From positions 1 to 45,733 of IMG/VR virus record IMGVR_UViG_3300044712_000978: 45,733 nt of DNA; one strand, 5' to 3'. The translations under genes and the position numbers were made by a program. The notes beneath the pieces are model-generated. The model did no database searches, was not told the origin of the DNA, and saw only the letters and a list, made by a program, of their open reading frames with translations. Shown here piece after piece: positions 39,355 to 45,733 of this stretch (positions are counted from its first letter, which is position 1; the number at the start of each line of letters is the position of its first letter). The DNA is from a virus.

Positions 39355-39557
39355 ATCTGACTCCTGATGAGTTGGGCGGCCCTTGAGATGCCCCGCTTTT
39401 CGGCGAGGCGCAGGGCCGCGAGGATGACGTAGACCTCAGTCTGCCGGGCATCCTCGAAAAGCAGGATGCACCGGCCATCGGGCTTACGGGAGACGTCCCA
39501 GAAGCCTCCCTTGCCCTCGAGCGAGCAATCGTGGCGATAGATTGCCCGGCTCGCCAT
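39351..39557 (-). CDS. Hypothetical 68-residue protein
   Basis: ATG 39557 overlaps the nuclease stop (TGATG). The product (MASRAIYRHDCSLEGKGGFW...) has a likely beta-alpha fold (ILLFEDARQTEVYVILAALR). No function was recognised; the tight overlap shows it is co-translated with the nuclease. Confidence 0.55.
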   Translation of the reverse strand: MASRAIYRHDCSLEGKGGFWDVSRKPDGRCILLFEDARQTEVYVILAALRLAEKRGISRAAQLIRSQM

Positions 39558-41062
39558 CACTTCCTCCCGGTCGAAGAGGTTGACATCGTGACCGTCACCT
39601 TCAACCAGGCAGGGGACTTGCCCTCCTTGTCCCACCCCTTGCTCTTGATCGCGGCGAGCAACGCCTTGTCGTCCGTCACCTTATAGGCGTCCGGCATCGC
39701 GGCGAAGTCAAGGACATCGTAGCCGATCTTGGGGACCTCCTTCGTCCCCGCGATCGGGCCGACCTTGGCCGGGGCCTCCTTGGCTTGTTGTGAAGCTTCG
39801 GCCGCCTGGGCCTTCATCAAGGCGGCCTTCTTCTCAGCCTGCTCCTTGGCGGCCTTCGTCTTGGCCTTCGCGGCTTCCTCTTCTGCCTTGCGGGCAGCTT
39901 CCTGCGCCTCCCGCTGCTTCTTGAGGGCCTCCTCGTGCTCACGCTGGAGCCGTTCGTTCTCGGCCTTCTTCCACTCGTCGAGGCGCTCCTTGAGCTTGAC
40001 CTTGGCCTCGCCCAGGGGGAGCAACGCCTTCGACGCGGCCTCCTTGATCCTCGTGAGAAGGTCCCTGACCGGGGCGTCGACCATCTTTCGGTTCGTTTCG
40101 ACCAGCCCCTCGAACTTCGTGACCTCGTTGAGGAAAAGCCCGGCCGCGTCCGCCGAAGCCTTGTCCGTGATCGTGAAGGCCAGGGCCTGCTCGCGATAGC
40201 CCTCAGCGCGGGCCACAGCCTCCTCCGAGATGACGACCATCGGCCCGGCAAACGGCTCGCCCGGTTCGACCAAGACCGGGGAAAGCCCGGACACCGCCTG
40301 CTCGACTGCGGCCTCCTTCGAAGCCTTCAGCTCTTCGGCCTTCTTGCTCTCCCAGGCATCGAAGGCCGGGCAGGTGCCGGGGTGCTTCGCCGCCTCGCAG
40401 TAGAGCTTCTTGCAATGCCACCCGGCGCAAGGGATCGGGTTCTCGCTGCGGGCCTCCGAGACGGCAGCGATGATCTTCGCCTCCCATTCGGGGAAAGAAG
40501 CCCTCGGGATGGTTCCGCTCCTGAAGCTCTCGAGGTGCGTGTTCGCTGGCTGGATGATGACCGTGAAGAGCTGCGTGACCTCCTTGCCTTCGGCCTCGAG
40601 CTTGCGGGAAAGCGCGATGCCGTAGGAGATGAGCTGGGGGTTCTCCTCGGGGGCCGTAATCATCCCCCGGCCGAACTTCCAGTCGATCACGATGACCGTC
40701 CCGCTGGCCGGGTGGTAGTAGGCCACGTCCGGGGTTCCTTCGGGCATTCCGAGCCACGCCAAGTCCAGCTTGACCTCGACGAACTTCTCGTAATGCCCTT
40801 CCGGCTCCAGCTCCTTGACGATGGAGAAGGCCGCCTTGATGGCCGTCACGTCTGCCGGGCTGTATTCCTCCTCGATCGTCTCCATAGCGGAGTCCCCGAC
40901 ATCCATCAGCAGGGCCATCGCTTCGTGAAGGGAGCGCCCGCGCTGGGCGTGTTCGTTATCCGAGAAGGGGAAAGGCGAGCTCAGCTTTGGGGCGGCCGGG
41001 CAAGCCAGCACCAGCTCCAACTTCGAGGGGCTGATGCGGAGAGGCTTTGTGTTTTTCGACAT
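39557..41062 (-). CDS. PD-(D/E)XK nuclease (DUF2800-like) with coiled-coil tail
   Basis: A 501-residue protein. Residues ~1-240 are a PD-(D/E)XK nuclease (EGTPDVAYY with Asp112, VIVIDWKFG with Asp127 and Lys129). Cys21 plus a C-rich cluster near 218-237 (CAGWHCKKLYC) could hold an iron-sulphur centre, as in Cas4/AddB nucleases. Residues ~350-435 form a long Glu/Lys/Ala coiled coil, followed by a C-terminal domain. It lies next to the RecT-like protein, so it probably provides the exonuclease for annealing. ATG 41062 has AAGGAG. Confidence 0.8.
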   Translation of the reverse strand: MSKNTKPLRISPSKLELVLACPAAPKLSSPFPFSDNEHAQRGRSLHEAMALLMDVGDSAMETIEEEYSPADVTAIKAAFSIVKELEPEGHYEKFVEVKLDLAWLGMPEGTPDVAYYHPASGTVIVIDWKFGRGMITAPEENPQLISYGIALSRKLEAEGKEVTQLFTVIIQPANTHLESFRSGTIPRASFPEWEAKIIAAVSEARSENPIPCAGWHCKKLYCEAAKHPGTCPAFDAWESKKAEELKASKEAAVEQAVSGLSPVLVEPGEPFAGPMVVISEEAVARAEGYREQALAFTITDKASADAAGLFLNEVTKFEGLVETNRKMVDAPVRDLLTRIKEAASKALLPLGEAKVKLKERLDEWKKAENERLQREHEEALKKQREAQEAARKAEEEAAKAKTKAAKEQAEKKAALMKAQAAEASQQAKEAPAKVGPIAGTKEVPKIGYDVLDFAAMPDAYKVTDDKALLAAIKSKGWDKEGKSPAWLKVTVTMSTSSTGRK

Positions 41063-41086: not shown

Positions 41087-42226
41087 CTACTTCTTGTTTT
41101 TGAGGAAAGCCTGCTTCGCCTTGAAGCCTTCGACCAGCTCCGTGTCGCCGCCCTTGCAGTTGGCTCGGAATTCCTTGTAAACGCGATCCGGGTCAACGCC
41201 AGCCTCCAGGGCCGCCTTCAGGTCGGCAACCGTCGCCACGACCTTTCCGGGAACGTAGGCAGGCTTAGGCGCTTCGATAGGGGCGGGGGCAGGGGTTGGG
41301 GCGGGAGGCTTGAGACGCTTGAGCGCATCGTTCGCGGCGTCGGCGATGTATTGCCGATCCTCGTCCGACATCTGCGTCTTGGATGCCTCGGCGACCAAAG
41401 CCGAAACCTCACCGACCGTCTTCGCTTCGCTGATCGCCTCGAAAAGCCCCATCGCAGGGCTGGGCTCAGCAGAAGGCACTTCCGGCTCAGGCTCCGGTGA
41501 AGGGGCAGGAGCTTTCGGCGGCTCGGGGGCAGGCTCGGGCGTCAGCACCTCAGCCTCGACAACCACCGGGGGCTGCGCCTCTTGGCTCTTCCGCGTGGCG
41601 TAGGGGACCGCCCCTGCCGCCTTCGCTTCCGGGCTTTCCGCTTGGCCCACAGGTTTGTCCGCCATATCCTGAAGCTCATCCGGGGTGTAGCTCACGCCCC
41701 CCAGGATGTCCGGGAACATGAAGCGAGCCATCCGGCTGATGCAGCGCCACCGGAGCATGTTGGCCCGATCGCCCCAGGTCGCCTTGGGCTTCCAGCCGCT
41801 TTTCTCTTTGTCCCAGGACTGGTCGTACTTCGCCGCGCTGGCCTCCTCGGATGTGAACGAGAAACGCTGGGGCTTTTCGTGGTCGATGTCCCGCGTTGCC
41901 TCGATGATGCACTGCTTGGCCGTCTGCTCGATGATGGTGATTCTGGCCTTGGGGAGCCGCTCGTAGATGAGCCCGAGCATGAGCTCGCCTCCCATCCCGG
42001 CCCGGCCATTGATGACGTGGATTCCTGCCAAGGCTCGCTGTGGGGAAAGTCCCAGCTCCCGTCCCTTGAGCATCAGAACGATGAGCTGCTCCGGCTTCGA
42101 GATGCCATTCGGAACCAGACCGGAGTGGATCATCAAGGACGCTTGCTGCTTGTAGCGGTCGATGACCTCCGGGCTTGGAAGCAGGTGGTCCGCCTGCTCC
42201 GTCAACGTCAGGGCTGTCGAGCTCAT
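41087..42226 (-). CDS. RecT-like single-strand annealing protein
   Basis: A 379-residue protein with RecT-type landmarks: LKGRELGLSPQRALAGIHVI, NGRAGMGGELMLGLI and NMLRWRCISRMARFMFPDIL, then GGVSYTPDEL. The C-terminal ~170 residues are Pro/Ala-rich linker plus a helical end (DLKAALEAGVDPDRVYKEFR). It anneals complementary strands during recombination and replication. It forms an exo/annealing pair with the PD-(D/E)XK gene downstream. Confidence 0.82.
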   Translation of the reverse strand: MSSTALTLTEQADHLLPSPEVIDRYKQQASLMIHSGLVPNGISKPEQLIVLMLKGRELGLSPQRALAGIHVINGRAGMGGELMLGLIYERLPKARITIIEQTAKQCIIEATRDIDHEKPQRFSFTSEEASAAKYDQSWDKEKSGWKPKATWGDRANMLRWRCISRMARFMFPDILGGVSYTPDELQDMADKPVGQAESPEAKAAGAVPYATRKSQEAQPPVVVEAEVLTPEPAPEPPKAPAPSPEPEPEVPSAEPSPAMGLFEAISEAKTVGEVSALVAEASKTQMSDEDRQYIADAANDALKRLKPPAPTPAPAPIEAPKPAYVPGKVVATVADLKAALEAGVDPDRVYKEFRANCKGGDTELVEGFKAKQAFLKNKK

Positions 42227-42709: not shown

Positions 42710-43903
42710 CTACTTGATCGCCAGGGCACCTCCCCCGCTAGCGATGAGCTTGCCGCCGAAGTCCTCCAGCTTCGTGGCGGTGTCGTAATCGTTCTCGCGG
42801 TGAGCATGGGCCGCCCCGGTGATCGCCCGCTGGAAGTCGAAGAGGTTCCCGCGAGCCTGCGTCATCGTCCGGTAGGCCTCGAGGATGTCGTCGCGCACCC
42901 CCTCGGCGAGCCCGGTGATCTCGATGACCTGGGAAGCCGCCTCGCGGACATCCACAACCGAGATGTCCTCGAGCCCCTTGAAGGCACGCGCCCACTTTAG
43001 CAGGCTCTCGGGGTTGAAGGCGGCCCGCACCACGTCGCGGGTCTTGGCGAAGATGACCTCGTTGATGCGGCGGTGGGTGTCCGGGGACCAGACCTCAGCC
43101 TCCGTCAGCTCACGCCCGACGTGGACCTGCGCCAAGCTCACTCCCAGGTGCGCGGTGTTGTCGCAGATGGCTTCGTAGAGCCCGGCCTCGACGGTCAAGC
43201 CGCCGTGCCCCGTCTCGCTGTTGCGGATGCGGACGGTGGGGAAAAGCATGCCTCCCCCCTGCGCCCTCAGCCAGCCGTGGTTCGGGGAGTCCGGGATGAA
43301 GAAGTCGGCGGGGTCGCGGGTGATGACTCCCTTGTCGAGCGCGTTGAGGTCAACCTGGATGCAGGGCTGGACGAACTCGACGTCGAGGTTCGTGGGGGAC
43401 AACGCCCACGAGAAGCAGCGGGCTCCCTTGGCCCAGGGCTGCTCGTGCCCGTCAGCCTCCAGACCGGTGACGACCTGGACTGCGGTGGTCACGAGGTCCA
43501 GGTGGCTGATGGGGCGGTAGCGCGACCCCAAGAAGGCGCGGACCTTGCCGTCGATCGTCCTGATGAACCGCTTCTTGTGCTTGGCCTGGAAAAGCCAGTG
43601 GTTGACGTTCAAGGCCAAGAGCTCGATGTCGTGCGGGCCGCCGTCGAGCATCCTGCGGTAGTAGCGCATGGGGATGTCCAGCTTGCCGCTGATCTGCTGG
43701 TGGGCCTGCTCCATGATCTCGAGGTTGACCGCCTCGTCCTGCCCGGGGAAGAGCAGGCCGGGCTTGTCCTTGCCGGACCCGCCCCCCGTGACCATCAGCT
43801 CGATGGCCGCGCTCGGGACGAGGTAGTCCTTCTGCCGGGCCTTCTCCACCCGCAGCGTCTCGACCAACGCCGGGATGTCCTTGAGCTTGCGTTCGGTGTT
43901 CAT
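42710..43903 (-). CDS. DUF932 protein
   Basis: A 397-residue DUF932/phage-plasmid family protein: HQQISGKLDIPMRYYRRML, HKKRFIRTIDGKVRAFLGSR, YRPISHLDL and the late GLYEAICDNTAHLGVSLAQV, HVGRE. Function is poorly known; related proteins are linked to anti-restriction or ssDNA/RNA work in phages. ATG 43903 has GGAGG five bases upstream. It is the main product of the early operon. Confidence 0.78.
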   Translation of the reverse strand: MNTERKLKDIPALVETLRVEKARQKDYLVPSAAIELMVTGGGSGKDKPGLLFPGQDEAVNLEIMEQAHQQISGKLDIPMRYYRRMLDGGPHDIELLALNVNHWLFQAKHKKRFIRTIDGKVRAFLGSRYRPISHLDLVTTAVQVVTGLEADGHEQPWAKGARCFSWALSPTNLDVEFVQPCIQVDLNALDKGVITRDPADFFIPDSPNHGWLRAQGGGMLFPTVRIRNSETGHGGLTVEAGLYEAICDNTAHLGVSLAQVHVGRELTEAEVWSPDTHRRINEVIFAKTRDVVRAAFNPESLLKWARAFKGLEDISVVDVREAASQVIEITGLAEGVRDDILEAYRTMTQARGNLFDFQRAITGAAHAHRENDYDTATKLEDFGGKLIASGGGALAIK

Positions 43904-43913
43904 TGAAGCCTCC

Positions 43914-43984
43914 AAAAACGTGCGGCCGTACAGGGCCGCGCTGTCCAGCTTAACCGCTGGCCCAGGCCCCGGATGCTCCGGGGC
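43914..43984 (-). other. Two hairpins before the DUF932 gene
   Basis: The first is GCCCCGGA/TCCGGGGC (43984-43977 with 43973-43966), a perfect 8-bp stem with a three-base loop. The second, GCGGCC/GGCCGC (43939-43934 with 43927-43922), is followed by ACG then TTTTT, terminator-like, eight bases before the DUF932 ribosome site. They could lower read-through from upstream genes or set DUF932 levels. Confidence 0.6.
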
Positions 43985-44597: not shown

Positions 44598-44762
44598 TCA
44601 GGGGAGTCGGTTCGCCTTCATCACTGCTGCATAGGCCCGGGCGTGGTCGGCCGTCCATTCCTGGGACGTGAACCTGAGCCGGTTGAAAGCCTCTTCGGCA
44701 AGCTTGCAGGCTGCCCGAAGCTCGATCAGTTCCTTTTTCGGTTTTGTCACCTTGCGCTCCAT
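44598..44762 (-). CDS. 54-residue charged helical protein
   Basis: ATG 44762 overlaps the first early gene's stop (TGATG). The product (MERKVTKPKKELIELRAACK...) is one long charged helix. It may be a small early regulator or inhibitor; no family was recognised. Confidence 0.55.
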   Translation of the reverse strand: MERKVTKPKKELIELRAACKLAEEAFNRLRFTSQEWTADHARAYAAVMKANRLP

Positions 44763-44962
44763 CACCCCTCCAGAATGGAAGCGAGCTCGGATTCGATCTC
44801 GCAGATGATGTCCTTGTCGCATTCTTCCACAACCTCGATGCCCTTGCCCGTGGCCGTGATCGCGGCCTGGACGGTGGTGAGGAGGGCGTTCGCTTCCCTC
44901 ATCGTGAGGGTGACCACGATCCCGGGCTCGCTTGAGGCGGGGTGCTTCTCCTGGAATTCCAT
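44762..44962 (-). CDS. First early gene, 66-residue acidic protein
   Basis: ATG 44962 has GGAGG five bases upstream (44972-44968), which sits right beside stem III of the hammerhead ribozyme. The product (MEFQEKHPASSEPGIVVTLT...) is acidic with DKDIICEIESELASILEG at its end, like many host-takeover proteins in size and position. The ribozyme would cleave this mRNA's leader. Confidence 0.6.
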   Translation of the reverse strand: MEFQEKHPASSEPGIVVTLTMREANALLTTVQAAITATGKGIEVVEECDKDIICEIESELASILEG

Positions 44963-44974
44963 CTTGACCTCCGT

Positions 44975-45036
44975 GCAGGGAGTTGGTTTCGTCCTTCAAA
45001 CGGACTCATCAGCGGGGGCTCTACCCCCGGACCTGC
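44975..45036 (-). ncRNA. Type III hammerhead ribozyme
   Basis: On the minus strand: stem III strand GCAGGU, cleavage triplet GUC (C17 at 45030), stem I CGGGGG/CCCCCG with loop UAGAG, core CUGAUGA (45012-45006), stem II GUCC/GGAC with a seven-base loop (GUUUGAA), then GAAA (44990-44987) and ACC closing stem III, possibly extended by GCA/UGC across a bulge. All catalytic core positions are present. Cleavage would fall between 45030 and 45029, 67 bases upstream of the first early ATG. Hammerheads of this form are known in phages; here it would process the early mRNA leader. Confidence 0.93.
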
Positions 45037-45110: not shown

Positions 45111-45178
45111 GGCTCCAAGTTATCCCGCCCTCGCGCTTCGCAGGCTTGGCCGGACCGATGGCTCCACGTTATCCCACC
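45111..45178. repeat. Two 19-bp direct repeats
   Basis: GGCTCCAAGTTATCCCGCC (45111-45129) and GGCTCCACGTTATCCCACC (45160-45178) differ at two positions and start 49 bases apart. They lie upstream of the ribozyme on the early-gene side and could be operator or protein-binding sites. The purpose is unknown. Confidence 0.6.
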
Positions 45179-45440: not shown

Positions 45441-45456
45441 TTAAGTATTTATCTTT
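45441..45456. promoter_or_regulatory. Inverted relative of the 13-bp motif
   Basis: TTAAGTATTTATCTTT matches the reverse complement of AAAGATAAAGGCTTAA at 45516-45531 at 14 of 16 positions. The two form a long-range inverted pair in the control region. A protein-binding role is possible. Confidence 0.4.
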
Positions 45457-45519
45457 TTCCCAAGGCATGGGAGGGCCGTCCCGGGATGCGGAAGCCAAGG
45501 AAGGGCCTTGTGGCTAAAG

Positions 45520-45532
45520 ATAAAGGCTTAAT
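45520..45532. promoter_or_regulatory. 13-bp motif copy in control region
   Basis: ATAAAGGCTTAAT, identical to 15574-15586 upstream of the tail chaperone gene. The occurrence of the same 13-mer in two non-coding AT-rich spots of a GC-rich genome is unlikely by chance and suggests a shared regulatory site. Confidence 0.45.
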
Positions 45533-45534
45533 AT

Positions 45535-45563
45535 AAAAGGCCCCGGCGAATGCCGAGGCCTTT
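45535..45563 (-). terminator. Rho-independent terminator ending late transcription
   Basis: Minus-strand stem AAAGGCC/GGCCTTT with an inner CGGC-GAAT-GCCG hairpin (45563-45536), followed by TTTTATATT. It would stop late transcripts that run past the patatin gene through the genome junction. Confidence 0.82.
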
Positions 45564-45606
45564 CCCGCCTTGCGCGGGGGTGGAGGGGCTTTCTCGTGGG
45601 GAGGGA

Positions 45607-45733
45607 GGGGTGCCGGGGGACCAGCCCAGCGGGGGGACGTGAAGAGGGCGCACCGTCTAGGCCGTCAACCGCCCGGCTTCCGATAGTGCGCCCTCAATGC
45701 CTAGAGCCAACCGAGGTTTTGGGCGACGAGGAC
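45607..45733. repeat. Right copy of 127-bp exact terminal overlap
   Basis: Identical to bases 1-127. Joining the two copies gives a continuous circle in which the late operon runs from the patatin gene across the junction into the terminator at 45535-45563. Confidence 0.97.

Follow-up and report, generated by a model that had tools for sequence, protein, structure and literature searches.

A type III hammerhead ribozyme motif in the untranslated first-operon leader of a viral genome

The untranslated leader that precedes the first operon genes on the minus strand of the window (the whole stretch of DNA analysed, 45,733 nt) encodes a type III hammerhead ribozyme motif. All hammerhead elements are present in type III order from 45033 to 44985, a region read directly from the sequence as GGUC^CGGGGGUAGAGCCCCCGCUGAUGAGUCCGUUUGAAGGACGAAACC. 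The core and the pairing potential are thus evident, as is the location relative to the downstream genes, and this is a genuine hammerhead motif that is probably active. We consider it likely that the hammerhead trims the operon mRNA by self-cleavage, and on the present analysis trimming of the first-operon leader is the most likely role of the ribozyme. Transcription of the minus strand would generate an RNA that folds into three stems and cleaves itself at 45030/45029, either co-transcriptionally or soon after. The downstream product would be the operon mRNA, which would begin with the stem I hairpin, carry a 5'-hydroxyl group and have a defined leader of 67 nt, while the upstream product would be a fragment with a 2',3'-cyclic phosphate end. 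The likely use would be RNA processing, providing the mRNA with one fixed 5' end whatever the upstream start or read-through, with a perhaps additional effect on stability. A 5'-hydroxyl RNA end resists 5'-monophosphate-dependent ribonuclease E. Cleavage may benefit the phage through the fixed 5' end, through protection from 5'-monophosphate-dependent decay or through separation of the mRNA from an upstream leader RNA.

Anatomy and statistical support of the motif

A first-pass annotation had claimed a complete type III hammerhead, and every core element was indeed read on the minus strand between 45033 and 44985; the cut it had placed 67 nt 5' of the ATG at 44962 also agrees with the sequence (Table 1). 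The invariant hammerhead core, CUGANGA ... GAAA with NUH before the cut, is represented by CUGAUGA, GAAA and GUC. The pairs flanking the core are the standard C-G, G-C and A-U in stems I, II and III, respectively, standard pairs at these positions being an acceptance rule for hammerheads (PMC3088659). In both the descriptor match and the Rfam alignment, loops close stems I and II and stem III is open, as for type III. Loops I and II could additionally form a 4-bp pairing, UAGA/UUUG, with two wobbles among the pairs.

Table 1. Positions of the ribozyme, its elements and neighbouring features in the window.
Feature	Position	Strand	Basis
Type III hammerhead ribozyme	44985..45033	-	Rfam RF00008, single-family E-value, strict descriptor
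Predicted cleavage site, 3' of C in GUC, 45030^45029	45029..45030	-	Hammerhead anatomy
Stem I, CGGGGG-UAGAG-CCCCCG, 6 bp	45013..45029	-	Sequence; pair probability about 0.98-0.99
Core CUGAUGA	45006..45012	-	Sequence
Stem II, GUCC-GUUUGAA-GGAC, 4 bp	44991..45005	-	Sequence; pair probability 0.58-0.97, varying with transcript ends
Core GAAA, final A = first base of stem III	44987..44990	-	Sequence
Stem III 5' strand GGU, partner ACC 44987-44985, 3 bp	45031..45033	-	Sequence; weak in predicted folds
Competing helix GCAGG (45036-45032)/CCUGC (44979-44975), excludes stem III	44975..45036	-	Predicted folds
Shine-Dalgarno CGGAGG of ORF1	44968..44973	-	Sequence, 5 nt upstream of ATG
ORF1, 66 aa, first gene of the operon	44762..44962	-	ORF list and searches
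RecT-like annealing protein	41087..42226	-	PHROGs E 1.6e-21; Pfam RecT below its cut-off
PD-(D/E)XK exonuclease	39557..41062	-	PHROGs and Pfam
GC hairpin, then short T-containing tract; possible terminator of preceding operon	45535..45564	-	Sequence reading

The covariance-model search of the minus strand that had been proposed as a check returned a match to Rfam RF00008 at 32.3 bits, with an E-value of 0.0037 across all 4227 families and of 8.8e-7 when this family was searched alone in this genome, but did not reach the curated gathering score of 48.5 bits, which is a database threshold and not a biochemical definition. Nine comparison type III matches in seven phage contigs, themselves picked by core patterns, scored 30.2-48.1 bits and, as all nine also fall below 48.5, the sub-threshold score was not taken to exclude membership of the family. 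A loose three-stem descriptor covering types I and III gave one match in the window versus 8 in a control of 200 dinucleotide shuffles, a single one of the latter having stems I/II/III of at least 5/4/3 bp. Restricting the descriptor to type III, with these stem lengths as minima and tighter loop limits, again yielded one match in the window versus 0 in 1500 shuffles. Thus, although the RF00008 score lies under the gathering score, a chance resemblance to a hammerhead is extremely unlikely in view of the single-family E-value, the absence of strict matches from the shuffles and a position which exactly matches the usual site of phage hammerheads. No second intact hammerhead was detected in the window with the three-stem descriptor. 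Rfam matches to FsrA and BSnc120 in the window scored far under the family cut-offs and were regarded as chance matches.

Genome context and the leader

The first and last 127 bases of the window are identical (1-127 and 45607-45733), and the genome is therefore probably complete; the repeat may be a terminal repeat or, for a circular or permuted genome, an overlap left by assembly. The minus strand holds all genes identified, including those for the RecT-like protein, the exonuclease, methyltransferases, terminase, portal, tail sheath and baseplate, and the ribozyme-bearing genome is best described as that of a tailed phage with a contractile tail. The end of a patatin-like gene (95-1003) falls inside the terminal repeat, leaving a gap of ∼740 nt to ORF1 on the closed genome. 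This gap contains a GC hairpin (45564-45535), an AT-rich stretch, a GC-rich leader, the ribozyme, the Shine-Dalgarno sequence and the ATG. Consensus promoter and terminator scans of the window found nothing, the 45535-45564 hairpin included. An inverted repeat, TTAAGTATTTATCTTT/AAAGATAAAGGCTTAA (45441-45456 and 45516-45531, 88% complementary), is located in the AT-rich part of the main intergenic region and may represent regulator sites. The part of the leader 5' of the ribozyme contains a direct repeat, GGCTCCAAGTTATCCCGCC/GGCTCCACGTTATCCCACC (45111-45129 and 45160-45178, 89% identical, 49 nt apart), a possible protein site or RNA element. The segment 45053-45102 resembles a degenerate copy of the hammerhead stem I and core region, possibly a decayed duplicate and suggestive only, equal scores being obtained in 15 of 2000 shuffles and 6 of 1760 window segments.

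The motif lies immediately 5' of the first ORF of a replication or recombination operon, in which genes for the RecT-like protein and the exonuclease follow on the minus strand. No known relatives were found for the 66-aa ORF1 product. That the ribozyme sits in the first-operon leader is well supported, whereas the operon is called early solely on account of its RecT-like and exonuclease content. From the end of stem III to the ATG at 44962 the distance is 22 nt. The ribosome site had been described as touching stem III, which is incorrect, as CGGAGG (44973-44968) is situated 11 nt from the stem III end (44985); similarly, the outer limits assigned to the ribozyme, 45036 and 44975, are the ends of the competing helix GCAGG/CCUGC and not of stem III.

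Predicted folding and the role of cleavage

Predicted folding gives the 3-bp stem III a probability near zero across most transcript lengths and of at most about 0.16 in transcripts not reaching past 44975, while GCAGG/CCUGC is favoured over stem III in most transcripts extending past this position. In the competing fold, UCCG (45042-45039) is also predicted to be able to pair with CGGA of the Shine-Dalgarno sequence. Equally low predictions for stem III are obtained for some other phage type III motifs (L105, L106 and L109b), and the predictions omit hammerhead tertiary contacts and core pairs. The efficiency of cleavage is uncertain given the 3-bp stem III and the predicted competing fold. 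Cleavage had also been suggested as a possible influence on the start of translation, but a direct link to ribosome binding is not supported by the predictions: the mean unpaired probability of the Shine-Dalgarno sequence is about equal in uncut (0.24-0.31) and cut (0.26-0.34) RNA. A translation switch operating through Shine-Dalgarno release was set aside, as predicted accessibility does not support it.

The low predicted probability of stem III and its length of only 3 bp would be accounted for if the motif were a relic or near-inactive descendant of an active leader ribozyme, in which useful cleavage is blocked by the competing helix and the shortness of stem III, and the possible decayed copy just upstream (45102-45053) is in line with such a history. 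We regard this as unlikely, however, as all core bases and core-adjacent pairs are intact, which would not be expected after long relaxation, and as weak predicted stem III helices are shared by some other phage motifs and come from predictions lacking the tertiary contacts and core pairs. Alternatively, the hammerhead and competing folds could be mutually exclusive states of a regulated switch, with a signal in the infected cell setting the fraction of transcripts cut and hence first-operon expression. Formation of GCAGG/CCUGC does rule out stem III, and the UCCG-CGGA pairing occupies part of the Shine-Dalgarno sequence in the same fold. Such a switch is nevertheless improbable, since predicted Shine-Dalgarno accessibility is alike before and after the cut, comparative support is lacking and chance alone is expected to give competing helices in GC-rich RNA.

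The cut could also mainly serve the upstream side, freeing a structured non-coding RNA of a few hundred nt or setting the 3' end of read-through RNA from the late operon that comes before, a role suggested by the long, GC-rich leader 5' of the cut, with its hairpins and direct repeat, and by the hairpin seen by eye directly 5' of the type III ribozyme in several other contigs. This is very improbable, given that known RNA families are absent from the region, with only weak Rfam matches far below cut-off, that the consensus scan found no promoter and that the nearest strong upstream hairpin of the window does not adjoin stem III.

Comparison with other phage hammerheads

Two core patterns retrieved 29 viral loci, 8 from the first and 21 from the second, the first pattern matching 8 viral contigs versus a single locus, in a bacterial MAG, across 257 Gb of archaeal and bacterial genomes. 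Across the retrieved loci, together with RiverRider and the window, the motifs passing the stem threshold comprised 31 of type I and 13 of type III (window included), with at least one likely chance match in the type I set (L098 plus strand) and with some contigs being near-copies (L092/L101), such that the motif copies are not all independent. Using a permissive pattern, a ribosome-site-like sequence with a start codon was observed no more than 70 nt downstream of 22/31 type I and 9/13 type III motifs (window included), the start codon being 12-25 nt away in type III motifs with a ribosome site. The window's ribozyme was correctly placed in the leader, with its cut 67 nt before the ATG, but this position, initially considered unusual, is less surprising than first thought because phage hammerheads often sit just before a ribosome site. 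With approximately forty phage hammerheads side by side, this siting is common, and leader trimming therefore becomes testable as a general phage strategy. Few hammerheads are known to head phage operons, and the window supplies a further clean case.

The stem I length and loop ends of the window's ribozyme correspond to the commonest build among the type III hammerheads of other phages. A 6-bp stem I together with a 4-bp stem II is common to 7 of the 13 other phage type III motifs, and a loop I starting with U together with a loop II ending in A, a trait noted after the sequences had been seen, is found in 8 of the 13 as well as in the window. For at least one motif per contig, the GUCC/GGAC stem and the length of loop II were imposed by the search patterns, which leaves stem I and the loop ends as the only independent points of agreement. 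Six IMG/VR contigs (L090, L091, L093, L098, L106 and L109) share with the window the type III topology, both stem lengths and both loop ends, and in three of them (L090, L106 and L109) a ribosome site and start codon also follow 12-25 nt downstream. They differ in that stem III is 4-6 bp long versus 3 bp in the window, and L091, L093 and L109 contain more than one ribozyme each whereas the window has one intact copy. A MAFFT alignment of 12 other type III motifs was set aside because the stems were misaligned. By eye and without a control, a hairpin was often seen immediately 5' of the type III stem III (L007, L090, L091, L109 and L110), a placement that would leave the 3' end of the upstream fragment close to a potentially protective hairpin.

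Searches of viral contigs found no related phage carrying the leader; no relatives of ORF1, the RecT-like protein or the 42710-43915 protein were found, and the exonuclease had only a weak partial relative. The hammerhead motif was detected in none of 74 contigs sharing the topoisomerase-like gene, the terminase (30-39% identity) or part of the exonuclease, an absence that means little because these contigs are too distant. Among named phages, BLAST with the motif returned just two matches, one to the core in Xanthomonas phage RiverRider and another of only 18 nt. The RiverRider sequence (L111 2995-3044) is a type I hammerhead with an intact core, located in an unannotated stretch before a tRNA cluster.

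Type I hammerheads are also observed directly 5' of tRNA-Tyr genes in three contigs (L094 8394-8525, L095 6478-6756 and L108 4377-4240, minus strand), and in all three called cases the predicted cut coincides exactly with the ARAGORN 5' end of the tRNA. A fourth, again in L095, precedes a tRNA-Tyr-like sequence ending in CCA, identified by reading and not called by ARAGORN. In these hammerheads one side of stem I is the acceptor 5' strand of the tRNA itself, and the ribozyme could therefore replace RNase P; if true, the ribozyme rather than RNase P would form the 5' end of these phage tRNAs. A literature search, with most subscription journals outside its coverage, found no paper on a hammerhead cutting at the 5' end of tRNA-Tyr.

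An operon-leader hammerhead is already known in phage, and the window is a new example of this known arrangement. In haloviruses HF1/HF2, the HHphage hammerhead is separated by 13 nt from the first ORF of an early polycistronic transcript, whose 5' end was mapped to within 3 nt of the cut (Perreault et al. 2011, PMC3088659). As in the window, that ribozyme occupies the first-ORF leader near the start codon in a tailed virus. The HF2 hammerhead, however, is annotated in NC_003345 as type II and has inserted core bases, whereas that of the window is type III; the HF1/HF2 host is a haloarchaeon, and the HF1/HF2 5' end was mapped while the window's site is predicted from sequence. Hammerhead clusters in prophages of Agrobacterium tumefaciens and Azorhizobium caulinodans similarly occur beside phage genes, with a proposed role in long-transcript processing (PMC3088659). 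In these prophages several ribozymes flank genes, whereas in the window a single ribozyme heads the operon.
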